Shown here one piece after another: positions 50,353 to 58,904 of a DNA stretch of 64,000 nucleotides. Position numbers and translations under genes: made by a program. The notes below the pieces were generated by a model. It made no database searches. It saw only the letters and a list, made by a program, of their open reading frames with translations, and was not told the DNA's origin. Source of the stretch: Cyclobacteriaceae bacterium (lineage in GTDB: Bacteria; Bacteroidota; Bacteroidia; Cytophagales; Cyclobacteriaceae); NCBI GenBank assembly GCA_029858965.1, contig JAOUDZ010000009.1:1-64000 (forward strand), read 5' to 3'. The number at the start of each line of letters is the position of its first letter. Within the stretch, counting starts at the first letter, position 1.

Positions 50353-50739
50353 TTACTTTGTTTGCGACAGTTGAGGGTTGTATTTGATCCCCCCAAATAA
50401 AAGCAGATAGAAAATACGGGAATAACGATAATTAAATGGGACGAGAAAAACCATGACGGCGATGATTGTCCCGATGTATACCCATTCTGAAGGATCTCCG
50501 GCAACATAAATCGCAATACCAAGGATTACCAGCACCGCTACGGTAAACGCATAGCCCACGTACATCGCGCCTTGAAAGAACCCCGGTTCAGGTTCCAATC
50601 TAACACCACAATGGGGGCAGATTTCATTCATTATGTTGAATTTCGAAATCCTGCTTATTGGATACATAAAAATATGGCCTTCACGGCAACGGGGACACTT
50701 ACCGCGCAGAAGGGCCTCCGTGTAACTGTTTTTGCGCAT
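50353..50739 (-). CDS. DUF983 membrane protein
   Basis: 128 residues. Two CxxC pairs, CPRCREGHIF near residue 15 and CPHCGVRLEPEPGFFQGAMY near residue 42, look like a zinc-ribbon; two or three membrane segments follow (VAVLVILGIAIYVAG, WVYIGTIIAVMVFLVPF). DUF983 proteins commonly accompany heme-copper oxidase genes; their role may be assembly-related but is not proven. Its start lies 41 bases inside the preceding 85-residue gene, in another frame. Last gene of the respiratory operon before the kinase gene. Confidence 0.88.
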   Translation of the reverse strand: MRKNSYTEALLRGKCPRCREGHIFMYPISRISKFNIMNEICPHCGVRLEPEPGFFQGAMYVGYAFTVAVLVILGIAIYVAGDPSEWVYIGTIIAVMVFLVPFNYRYSRIFYLLLFGGIKYNPQLSQTK

Positions 50740-50956
50740 TCTTGCTGGATTTATACCACAAATATCCGATTAACAACACCGCCAGATAAGGCATTGAAAG
50801 CAGGTACAAGATTCCGGTATTGATCCCTGCGGCAATTCCCGGATTTCCGTTTGAAAAGTTATTCTCCAAGGTAGACCGGCACATTGCGCATTGCGCAATA
50901 CCCAGGTTAACAAAACCGGCTGTCAACATAATACCTAACAGTAGCACCTTTTTCAT
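50699..50956 (-). CDS. Small CxxC membrane protein of the oxidase cluster
   Basis: 85 residues. A signal-like segment ends at ...NLGIAQ and is followed by CAMCRSTLENN (CxxC), then GIAAGINTGILYLLSMPYLAVLLIGYLWYK, one membrane segment, and a basic tail. I recognise this as a recurrent small protein beside cytochrome oxidase genes in Bacteroidota, but it has no established name or function. The CxxC could bind a metal or be redox active in the periplasm. It overlaps DUF983 by 41 bp. Confidence 0.7.
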   Translation of the reverse strand: MKKVLLLGIMLTAGFVNLGIAQCAMCRSTLENNFSNGNPGIAAGINTGILYLLSMPYLAVLLIGYLWYKSSKNAQKQLHGGPSAR

Positions 50957-50988: not shown

Positions 50989-51525
50989 TTACAAATAATA
51001 AGGGCTTATCATTAAGTATACCATTACGCCGGTAATGGCAACATAAAGCCATACTGGAAACGTAAATCTAGCAAGTGCCTTGTGCCTTACAAATTCTCCT
51101 TGCCATGCTCTCAAATAAGTGAACAAAACCATGGGTATAACGCCAATAGACAAGAAAATGTGCGTAACCAGGATAAAATAGTAGACATACCGGATTGCCC
51201 CTTGCCCGCCGAAGGGTGTCGATTCACTGGTCATGTGATAAAGTACATAGAGCACCAAAAATAGCGCTGACAACAAAATGCACGTTTTCATGAGTCGTTC
51301 ATGGTATTTCCGGTATCCGCTTTTTATACAGATTATGGCAGCAATAAGTAATACGGCAGTAATACCGTTGATTGTGGCGTAAACTGGCGGCAGGAAGCTT
51401 AATGTATAGCCGGGCACTTTCACGCCAAATAAGATTGCGACTACAACAGGAATCAGGACCGAAACTGTGACGATCACCTTTGTGTATTTTCTATTCTCCT
51501 GAACAGCAGTAACCTCTTTTTTCAT
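50989..51525 (-). CDS. DUF420 membrane protein (oxidase cluster)
   Basis: 178 residues with five membrane segments and conserved histidines in KYHERLMKT, LYHMTSES, LVTHIFLSI and VRHKALARFTFP. DUF420 proteins (YozB/CtaM-like) accompany heme-copper oxidases and are involved in their assembly in some Firmicutes; the role here is inferred from position. It starts one base after the SCO-like gene stop and is followed by the small CxxC gene, clearly in one operon. Confidence 0.88.
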   Translation of the reverse strand: MKKEVTAVQENRKYTKVIVTVSVLIPVVVAILFGVKVPGYTLSFLPPVYATINGITAVLLIAAIICIKSGYRKYHERLMKTCILLSALFLVLYVLYHMTSESTPFGGQGAIRYVYYFILVTHIFLSIGVIPMVLFTYLRAWQGEFVRHKALARFTFPVWLYVAITGVMVYLMISPYYL

Positions 51526-51526
51526 C

Positions 51527-52018
51527 TTAATACTGCTTTAGCATTATGCTCAACTCTGTTGAGAGTCTGTCCATTTCTTCACGTTTTGCACTTTCATACT
51601 GCCCTCGAATCATTCCCTTCCTATCCAACAAGACTACATCAAAAGGATTTCGCAAGAAGAAAATGCAGTTTTTCCAATAGCGGGTTTTGTCGGTGTTTGG
51701 CAGCATCAGAATTACGACGGGGAATTGCATGAATTCTGTTTCAATGCGCCTAAGCAGATTTGAAGATTCATTTGTTATTTCCCCGGTATAGACAATGACA
51801 AGACTATCATTTTCAAATGGCAATTGTTCCTTTATGCTATCGGGAATATGATAGGGAAGTGCTTGTATGGCCTGGCAACCATCCTGAATTTCCGGATATA
51901 CATCCACAAATAAGGGTTGCACCGAGAATTCATTCTTTCCAAAAAATTTAAGAAATAGGAAGATACAAATGGGTAATATTAATGCCAGAAAAAGAAAAAC
52001 TACTTTTTGTTTATTCAT
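51527..52018 (-). CDS. SCO-like thioredoxin-fold protein lacking the copper-site residues
   Basis: 163 residues. An N-terminal anchor (KVVFLFLALILPICIFLFLKFFG) matches that of Bacteroidota SCO1/SenC proteins. Where SCO proteins have the CPxxC site, this has VIVYTGEITNESSNLLRRIE, keeping the NLLRR helix but with neither Cys. The distal metal His region reads FLRNPFDVVLLDRKGMIRGQY, keeping LLDRKGxIRG but with no His. Both Cys and the His of the copper site thus appear lost while the fold is retained. It lies at the SCO position in the oxidase operon. ATG 52018 is preferred over ATG 52027. A non-copper assembly role is inferred. Confidence 0.7.
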   Translation of the reverse strand: MNKQKVVFLFLALILPICIFLFLKFFGKNEFSVQPLFVDVYPEIQDGCQAIQALPYHIPDSIKEQLPFENDSLVIVYTGEITNESSNLLRRIETEFMQFPVVILMLPNTDKTRYWKNCIFFLRNPFDVVLLDRKGMIRGQYESAKREEMDRLSTELSIMLKQY

Positions 52019-52110: not shown

Positions 52111-52440
52111 CTATAATCGCAGATCAGAAATAATGATTCCCTCGTATATGAAAGCGACGAGCATCCAGATGACAAAAGTCAAAGGAATCAGGATAGACCA
52201 AAACAACACCTTTACTTCATAGCGCAGATGCATAAATTCACCGACAATGTAACTGGCTTTGACAATAGTCAAGCCAATAAAAATAGCCGTTTTTAGTGGT
52301 CCGTGATGCATGGTAAAGGCGATCAAGAATTCAACTGCCGTTACTGCACCCAGTATTGCGGCTACAGTCCAAAGTTTCTTGATTTTTTCTTTATCAGGGG
52401 GCAGTACGTTTACCTGTACATTATCTTCAGCGTGATCCAT
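52111..52440 (-). CDS. Cytochrome c oxidase subunit IV, prokaryotic type
   Basis: 109 residues with three membrane segments (LWTVAAILGAVTAVEFLIAF, GLTIVKASYIVGEFMHLRYE, LIPLTFVIWMLVAFIYEG). The FMHLRYE(V)K motif at the end of the second segment is typical of the small CyoD/CtaF-like subunit IV of bacterial heme-copper oxidases. It stabilises the complex in the inner membrane. It follows the second subunit III gene in the same operon. Confidence 0.9.
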   Translation of the reverse strand: MDHAEDNVQVNVLPPDKEKIKKLWTVAAILGAVTAVEFLIAFTMHHGPLKTAIFIGLTIVKASYIVGEFMHLRYEVKVLFWSILIPLTFVIWMLVAFIYEGIIISDLRL

Positions 52441-57827: not shown

Positions 57828-58904
57828 TTATTCCTTAAGTTCTGCTACGGATGATCCCGGATCCTTCTCCATGCCTGCCTTGATCATTGCTGCTTCCTGC
57901 AAAGCACTAGGTACCTTCTTCAGATAATCAGGATTCTGCTTTAACCAGGCTTCTTGTGAAGCCTTCCATCGCTCATACGTTGCCTGATCTTCAACAACCA
58001 CTGCCATTTTCATAGAGAAGTGCCCTTTCCCGCATACCTCGGTACAGGCCATTTCATAATTGAAATCCGGATTTCCCAATTCATCCCGCATCTGGGCAGT
58101 AGTTTTGGTGGCCTTAAACTTGAACTGCGTTGGCATTCCAGGCACGGCGTCCATCTTCAGTCTGAAGTGCGGTAAGAACACGCTATGCAAGACATCCTTA
58201 GCTCTGATCTTCAATAAAATTTCCTTATCCACCGGGAGATGTAACTCAAGCGACTTAAAATCATCAAAAGAGTTCTTGTCCGTAAGATCCAGGCCGAATT
58301 CATTTCCAAAATTGTCAATCAACTTATAGTTTACTTTCCCCAATATATTATCCTTGACACCGGGATAACGGACTGACCAAGCAAACTGTTGACCAATCAT
58401 CTCGATCACTTCAGCTTCTTTGGAAGCCGGAGAAGTAATGTCATTCCAGGCGCGAAGACCGGTGAAGATTAATACAGCCAAAACAATAGCCGGGATAATT
58501 GTCCATGCCAACTCCAAAACATGACTGTCTGGAAAGTATTTTGCTTTCTGCCCTTCACGGTACTGATACTTGTAAATAAATATAAACATGATGATACTAA
58601 TGATCACGAAAGCAACAACAGTGATACCCATTGTCACCCAGAACAAAGTATCTGTAACCTTGCCATGTTCTGAGGCAATAGGTAAATGGTAGGAGTCAAA
58701 ATGAACAATCGAATACCAAAAAAACCATCCAAGGCTTCCGACCATGAAAACGATAAAGAGAGCAGCATTGATTTTGTTCGCCGAACTGGCTTTCTCATTA
58801 CCTACGTCTCCCTTTGCAATACTAACCAGGTTGCTCACTCTGAAAATCATGTATAAGATTGCCAGGACCAGAACGACACCAATAAAAATAACCAAACTCG
58901 TCAT
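57828..58904 (-). CDS. ctaC: Cytochrome c oxidase subunit II
   Basis: 358 residues. Three N-terminal hydrophobic segments (~3-20, ~48-68, ~90-115) precede the periplasmic cupredoxin domain, which holds DVLHSVFLPHFRLKMDAVPG and the CuA motif CTEVCGKGHFSMKM (Cys-x3-Cys-x3-His-x2-Met). No CxxCH follows, so there is no fused cytochrome c domain; electrons are presumably delivered by the ACIII cytochrome subunit ActE or another cytochrome. It lies 14 bases after the actF stop, joining ACIII and oxidase in one transcript. Confidence 0.95.
   Translation of the reverse strand: MTSLVIFIGVVLVLAILYMIFRVSNLVSIAKGDVGNEKASSANKINAALFIVFMVGSLGWFFWYSIVHFDSYHLPIASEHGKVTDTLFWVTMGITVVAFVIISIIMFIFIYKYQYREGQKAKYFPDSHVLELAWTIIPAIVLAVLIFTGLRAWNDITSPASKEAEVIEMIGQQFAWSVRYPGVKDNILGKVNYKLIDNFGNEFGLDLTDKNSFDDFKSLELHLPVDKEILLKIRAKDVLHSVFLPHFRLKMDAVPGMPTQFKFKATKTTAQMRDELGNPDFNYEMACTEVCGKGHFSMKMAVVVEDQATYERWKASQEAWLKQNPDYLKKVPSALQEAAMIKAGMEKDPGSSVAELKE

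Follow-up and report, generated by a model that had tools for sequence, protein, structure and literature searches.

A copper-free relative of SCO kept beside CtaM in the oxidase operon of a Cyclobacteriaceae bacterium

The cytochrome oxidase operon of a Cyclobacteriaceae bacterium contains, at its SCO locus, a gene for a membrane-anchored SCO relative from which all three copper ligands have been lost. The gene lies in the window, the stretch of 64,000 nucleotides that we analyzed (GenBank assembly GCA_029858965.1, contig JAOUDZ010000009.1, positions 1 to 64,000). With a probability of roughly 0.5, we favor the reading that copper delivery has passed to another SCO and that the operon SCO has been reduced to a disulfide-stapled assembly scaffold.

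The open reading frame starts with the ATG at 52018, six bases downstream of a GAGGTG box, and ends with a stop codon at 51529-51527, one base before the start codon of the DUF420 gene. Genes for COX1, COX2, two COX3 proteins, and COX15-CtaA, as well as a UbiA-type gene that by its position we take to encode heme O synthase, are on the same strand. The initial annotation had placed the protein at the SCO locus beside subunit IV and DUF420, and the PF03626 and PF04238 matches of the neighbors bear this out (Table 1). Beyond DUF420, at 50353-50739 and 50699-50956 of the minus strand, are genes for a DUF983 protein whose N-terminus is rich in cysteine and for a small CAMC-containing membrane protein, which may belong to the same operon as DUF420; a similar pair occurs near DUF420 in locus L088.

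Table 1. Coordinates of the SCO relative, its parts, and neighboring oxidase genes in the window.
Feature	Position	Strand	Basis
Copper-free SCO relative, 163 aa: TM anchor and reduced thioredoxin fold	51527..52018	minus	ORF, AlphaFold, hhalign
DUF420 (CtaM-type) assembly protein	50989..51525	minus	PF04238, 8e-44
Oxidase subunit IV (COX4_pro)	52111..52440	minus	PF03626, 9e-13
Oxidase subunit II, intact CuA ligands (CTEVCGKGHFSM and DVLHSV)	57828..58904	minus	PF00116
TM helix (3-26) and juxtamembrane FGKNEF motif, codons 3-38	51905..52012	minus	AlphaFold helix; segment identity
C48, first Cys of second pair (Ca)	51875..51877	minus	aligned columns
GEITNESSN, residues 79-87, place of lost CxxxC loop	51758..51784	minus	hhalign alignment
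C118, second Cys of pair (Cb; C of ARCGF in canonical operon SCO)	51665..51667	minus	aligned columns
Residues 128-163: two strands (VLLD..IRGQY) and C-terminal helix	51530..51637	minus	AlphaFold; segment identity

Profile comparison identifies the window protein as an SCO homologue by descent. In hhalign, a profile of 24 copper-less relatives aligned with one of 18 canonical SCOs from the same position at 99.9% probability (E 6.9e-35, 166 columns), which together with the graded series of proteins at this locus described below upholds the SCO ancestry claimed at the outset. Searches with the single protein were far less informative. No Pfam family, PF02630 included, matched at E up to 1; NCBIfam gave nothing useful (a RutD match at 0.016 looks like chance), nor did PDB sequences, and a GMP synthase match at 0.18 likewise looks like chance. 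PF02630 itself matched 33 of the 99 members of the alignment for this position, canonical ones included.

The AlphaFold model (pLDDT 95.6, pTM 0.84) places a TM helix at residues 3-26, which is conserved and corresponds to the membrane anchor of SCO1/SenC, followed by a strand, helix, strand, helix, two strands, and a final helix. As the proposed kinship suggested, this is a thioredoxin fold, and the SCO structures 4hde (Z 9.1, 111 residues aligned, residues 31-161) and 1xzo (Z 8.8, 114 aligned, residues 31-163) were among its best matches in VIA-align. The fold is that of SCO1/SenC, though it is unspecific for SCO: thioredoxins (aligned from residue 59) and peroxiredoxins or DsbE (from residues 31-34, 106-109 aligned) tied with SCO in Z, as illustrated by peroxiredoxin Q 5iiz (Z 8.9, 107 aligned, residues 34-161), and Foldseek ranked thioredoxin-like domains of flavin monooxygenases and thioredoxins first, so we discarded fold alone as a route to SCO ancestry. 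Because the fold is shared with thioredoxins, peroxiredoxins, and DsbE, SCO descent rests on the profile comparison and on the graded series. A 138-residue form of the protein (L050) was also modeled with confidence (pLDDT 94.1), with helix a2 down to about one turn; no SCO entry stood among its best 50 structural matches, a result that we did not count against SCO descent. The CxxC at the start of helix a1 expected of thioredoxin, ResA, or TlpA is absent, and neither CxxC nor CxxxC occurs past the anchor of the window protein.

In the hhalign alignment, the canonical copper loop FFFTSCPSICPVM faces VYT-----GEITNESSN, and the corresponding segment of the window protein, VYTGEITNESSN, is thus five residues shorter and has neither cysteine; a search for a cysteine pair at the aligned CxxxC place found none. 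The distal histidine falls within a deleted stretch of 12 residues. The loss of all three copper ligands, as initially annotated, therefore stands, with the correction that the distal histidine was not replaced but deleted with its surroundings. Absence of both CxxxC and the histidine sets the protein apart from SCO copper chaperones, as a copper-free variant derived from SCO.

A survey of this locus in relatives adds a point missing from the initial annotation, namely that loss of the copper site recurs in the family and the class. We took the gene before DUF420 from 106 genomes (110 loci, L005-L114, four of which gave no first-pass row: L026, L027, and L029, stretches without DUF420, and L088, which is inverted); rows for L051 and L058, which missed the anchor pattern, were added by hand. 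CxxxC plus histidine was present in 29 of these 106 operon proteins, which are 216-222 residues long. The other 77 lacked the full copper site and measured 134-237 residues (median 181), short lengths being approximate because the start codon is uncertain in eight proteins. Among these 77, L021, L039, and L046 keep CxxxC without the histidine, L019 has no CxxxC yet has a histidine at the aligned place, and a few, such as L032 and L066, retain a single cysteine or a nearby CxxC. With five more genomes added, the tally for the GTDB family of the window came to 105 genomes and 83 genera, of which 57 lacked the full site (53 without CxxxC, 4 with CxxxC only) and 26 were canonical, with no genus mixed. 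Reduction is extreme in some lineages (134-144 residues). Close relatives occur in named taxa, among them Chryseolinea serpens, Chryseolinea lacunae, Ohtaekwangia koreensis, Chryseosolibacter, Fulvivirga, and Roseivirga.

For the class, we examined one genome from each of 58 other Bacteroidia families. Twelve of the 58 stretches were excluded because they contained no SCO-like ORF, one of them (L189) being a contig end of 875 bases; seven were centered on an SCO match rather than on DUF420, and three of these seven (L237, L239, L243) have no DUF420 and are absent from the class tree. The remaining 46 comprised 32 canonical proteins, 13 with an incomplete or missing copper site (among them L201 and L235, which keep CxxxC), and one Cx5C variant. 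That variant, the operon SCO of L241 (genome G050), has CGNPDFC and the distal histidine; it alone matches PF02630 in its genome at E up to 1e-5, so its wider loop probably still forms part of a copper site. Addition of three canonical families (f2, f4, f20) and four ligand-less ones (f6, f8, f11, f14; the f6 locus, L026, being one of the stretches that gave no DUF420) gave 35 canonical and 17 ligand-less families outside that of the window, as called by pattern and by eye from one genome per family. A quick DUF420 tree (63 rows, 16 from the family of the window) required 18 label changes, with 8 independent pairs on starred branches. A tree of DUF420 plus subunit IV required 7 label changes, at least 3 of them forced by starred branches, and 12 losses under Dollo parsimony; with each fork counted once, 8, 5, or 3 losses had branch support of at least 80, 90, or 95, and we give these counts as ranges because this tree has many weak branches and two long ones. 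By these trees, loss of the copper site in the operon SCO of Bacteroidota is repeated.

Retention of the operon protein is general in the family. In the genomes examined, every one of the 83 family genera with DUF420 has an operon-type protein, in one case (g92) as an inverted copy beside it; an 84th genus, represented by one genome of 52% completeness, gave no match. In G097 (L175) and G150 (L177), the gene is convergent to DUF420 and encodes CxxxC (CESAC and CDENC, respectively) without the histidine; an apparent absence of the gene from G097 was ruled out, as it is inverted there. NG86 dN/dS values for copper-less pairs were 0.150 (L110/L111) and 0.135 (L007/L008), with rougher values, owing to dS above 1.4, of 0.139 (L006/L007), 0.160 (L054/L108), 0.247 (L072/L112), and 0.199 (L041/L113). 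Three further copper-less pairs and two of three canonical pairs were saturated; the one unsaturated canonical pair gave 0.023, a stronger constraint than in any copper-less pair. Judged by these substitution ratios, the copper-free operon protein is under purifying selection, and retention together with selection makes some function likely.

Constraint has also shifted within the protein. Mean pairwise identity in the former copper-loop segment is 0.13 among 73 proteins without CxxxC versus 0.76 among 28 canonical ones, and the linker, b2-a2, and C118 segments also drop, to 0.06-0.15 (gaps counted as mismatches). By contrast, the TM, juxtamembrane, b3-b4, and C-terminal helix segments remain at 0.40-0.44 in the same 73 proteins, with 0.40 and 0.44 for the TM helix and juxtamembrane segment of codons 3-38. 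Of the individual residues, P16, F22, L23, F26, G27, N29, C48, C118, L130, D132, R138, G139, D150, R151, and E155 are conserved in 90% or more of the 73 proteins. Copper-less members keep the anchor, the juxtamembrane FGxNxF motif, the strands with IRGYY, the C-terminal helix, and the C48/C118 pair.

This second cysteine pair had been overlooked in the initial annotation. C48 lies between the TM helix and the fold, before strand b1, and C118 at the end of helix a2. In the aligned columns, both cysteines are present in 101 of 106 proteins, neither is present in five (L016, L025, L031, L037, L048), and one alone never occurs (104 rows by alignment, L051 and L058 by eye; Fisher 1e-8, uncorrected for kinship). 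The pair could be read in 79 of 80 further loci, with both cysteines in 69, neither in 2, and only C118 aligned in 8, where a cysteine was seen by eye close to the C48 column. This co-occurrence makes a C48-C118 disulfide most likely. The pair is found in canonical operon SCOs too, besides CxxxC and histidine, which indicates that it arose before the copper site was lost and looks structural; four proteins without CxxxC (L016, L025, L037, L048) do without it, so it is not required for the role.

The prediction of a canonical SCO elsewhere in the genome proved right. The genome of the window has one PF02630 match over the cut-off, outside the window (L001, 92.6 bits), which has the copper ligands (TSCRTICP...FIHSGAF) and has a UPF0093 gene upstream of it and a c-type cytochrome gene downstream. 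A PF02630 match away from the operon was present in 56 of the 57 copper-less family genera, the exception being G077, an 82% complete genome whose sole match is its own operon protein, and CxxxC plus histidine was intact in the second SCO of all 50 genera (of the 56) whose locus was read. We collected 60 SCO sequences, several from one genus, three from other families, and two from canonical genera (one of which, L149, is an operon copy); 56 of the 60 fit the CxxxC/His pattern and four were confirmed by eye. A permissive lipobox pattern occurred in 55 of the 57 found by the Cys pattern, so most second SCOs look like lipoproteins. None of 56 non-operon SCO sequences has a cysteine after CxxxC, and 43 of the 56 are followed by a CxxCH ORF, whereas none of the 56 is preceded by one. 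One SCO-like protein, L138 (G019:C61), has a lipobox-like start and an extra cysteine-rich N-terminal segment (VCPMSCKG...CPVCHM) that may be a fused metal-binding domain. In four other families (L203, L211, L214, L187), the canonical SCO beside DUF420 is itself lipoprotein-like (LSC, VAC, ASC, and SAC starts); the positions of the two types of SCO may therefore be interchangeable.

Within the family, possession of a second SCO is the rule, as 25 of 26 canonical genera also have at least two PF02630 matches. Outside the family, a second SCO, counted by PF02630 match with ligands read in 3 of the 17 (L116, L121, L140), occurred in 17 of 17 ligand-less and 25 of 35 canonical genomes (Fisher p 0.021; 0.075 with L241 taken as ligand-less, 0.080 on tree rows), and a kinship-paired test, which has no power here, gave on average 1 pair for, 0 against, and 7 ties. 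By these counts, ligand loss is only weakly associated with a second SCO. The ligands of the copper center to be served persist. In 30 of 30 genomes whose operon SCO lacks the full copper site, the CuA ligands of subunit II (two Cys, two His, Met) are intact, as read in one piece for 29 and with the first His read separately for L262; this rules out that ligand loss is tied to loss of CuA. Subunit II is on the same contig as the operon SCO in 26 of the 30. The genome of the window has two further COX1 matches (L275 and L276, on G000:C62 and G000:C129), one of them close to the start of a contig and the other in a 790-residue frame.

How might a copper-free SCO act? In the reading that we favor, a second, mostly lipoprotein-like SCO would metallate CuA. 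The TM/FGxNxF end would hold the operon protein in the membrane, and the C48-C118 disulfide would keep it rigid. Its C-terminal beta-hairpin and helix would bind an oxidase intermediate still under construction (subunit II and/or CtaM/DUF420), and the protein would serve as a placeholder or scaffold during assembly. Operon SCOs would then have had two jobs from the start, only the copper-free one always being required. A docking scaffold in oxidase assembly is suggested by the conserved membrane end, the conserved C-terminal face, and the CtaM neighbor, and we infer docking on subunit II or CtaM from gene order and the conserved ends. The initial annotation had already proposed a copper-free assembly role; its SCO ancestry, ligand loss, locus, and SCO elsewhere all held, while that role can be called likely only, and a physical partnership with the other SCO, also raised there, is conjectural. 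We propose more tentatively that an ancestral copper-independent scaffold function of caa3-operon SCOs survived repeated loss of the copper site and yielded minimal (about 135-165 residues), disulfide-stapled pseudo-SCOs that Pfam misses.

A scaffold used in assembly must be weighed against the alternative that the protein has become a small accessory subunit, permanently part of the caa3 oxidase or an ACIII-oxidase supercomplex. Tight coupling to subunit genes, conservation of the membrane anchor and juxtamembrane motif, and retention in all 83 genera speak for it. We consider this alternative doubtful, as the profile of 24 copper-less members matched no PDB chain at E up to 10, even though a Flavobacterium ACIII-oxidase structure has been deposited (that species may have a canonical operon SCO or none); a profile including canonical members matched only the SCO entry 4hde among PDB sequences. 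Entry 6BTM presumably contains oxidase chains. Excerpts of one article name it in connection with the Flavobacterium structure (PMC8552683), and canonical SCOs are described as assembly factors in excerpts of a review (PMC9145763). The near-invariance of C48 and C118 (0.95 and 0.95 in the 73 proteins without CxxxC), always both or neither in the aligned set of 106, could instead mean that they are the active site, either for thiol-disulfide chemistry or for a metal, and have inherited the redox part of what SCO does, which is to keep the CuA cysteines reduced. This seems improbable to us, because the same pair accompanies CxxxC and histidine in canonical operon SCOs and so predates the loss, because it forms no CxxC motif, with C48 ahead of strand b1 and C118 where helix a2 ends, and because four proteins have neither CxxxC nor the pair.

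The least probable alternative, and a very unlikely one in our judgment, is that the gene is an accidental relic, kept because translation of DUF420 is coupled to it. The one-base gap between the gene and the DUF420 start codon, an estimated spacing of -49 to +67 bases in other loci, and shrinkage to 134-144 residues in some lineages are all as a relic would have them. Purifying selection nevertheless acts on the amino acids (dN/dS 0.14-0.25), near-invariant residues are scattered along the protein, and even the 138-residue form gives a confident, compact model. Moreover, the gene persists in G097 and G150, encoding CxxxC without histidine, where its convergent orientation makes translational coupling to DUF420 impossible.

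Comparison with known systems places the window protein closest to the SCO1/SenC/YpmQ copper chaperones of CuA (PF02630), with which it has in common a single TM anchor, a thioredoxin fold, an oxidase/CtaM gene neighborhood, and profile homology; unlike them, it has neither CxxxC nor the histidine stretch, is about 58 residues shorter (163 versus 216-222), and falls below Pfam detection. Excerpts of two articles describe Arabidopsis HCC2 as a plant SCO without copper ligands (PMC5877523, PMC3971200). As portrayed there, this mitochondrial paralogue keeps its thioredoxin domain alongside canonical HCC1, and its knockouts retain normal oxidase activity and show UV-B sensitivity. Here, by contrast, it is the operon gene itself that lacks the ligands, the loss is recurrent, and the protein is often much reduced. 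Excerpts of the review equate DUF420 with CtaM, without which aa3/caa3 oxidases of Bacillus and Staphylococcus are not active, perhaps because it acts at CuB or another late step (PMC9145763). As the immediate operon neighbor, CtaM may share an assembly step with the SCO relative, although it is a multi-TM protein of another family. A literature search by title and start of abstract, with most subscription journals outside its scope, returned no account of a copper-less bacterial operon SCO; that such proteins are new to the literature is a weak claim.

Whether SCO acts as a copper carrier or as a thiol reductase is a long-standing debate, as noted in excerpts of one of the plant studies (PMC3971200). 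Repeated removal of the copper site with the rest of the protein kept separates the copper role from another role of SCO, and this copper-independent role is open to testing in cultured relatives such as Chryseolinea, Ohtaekwangia, Fulvivirga, and Roseivirga. It also supplies a reading for a set of proteins mostly missed by Pfam, including the window protein, which Pfam leaves unlabeled and for which NCBIfam offers just the chance match to RutD.
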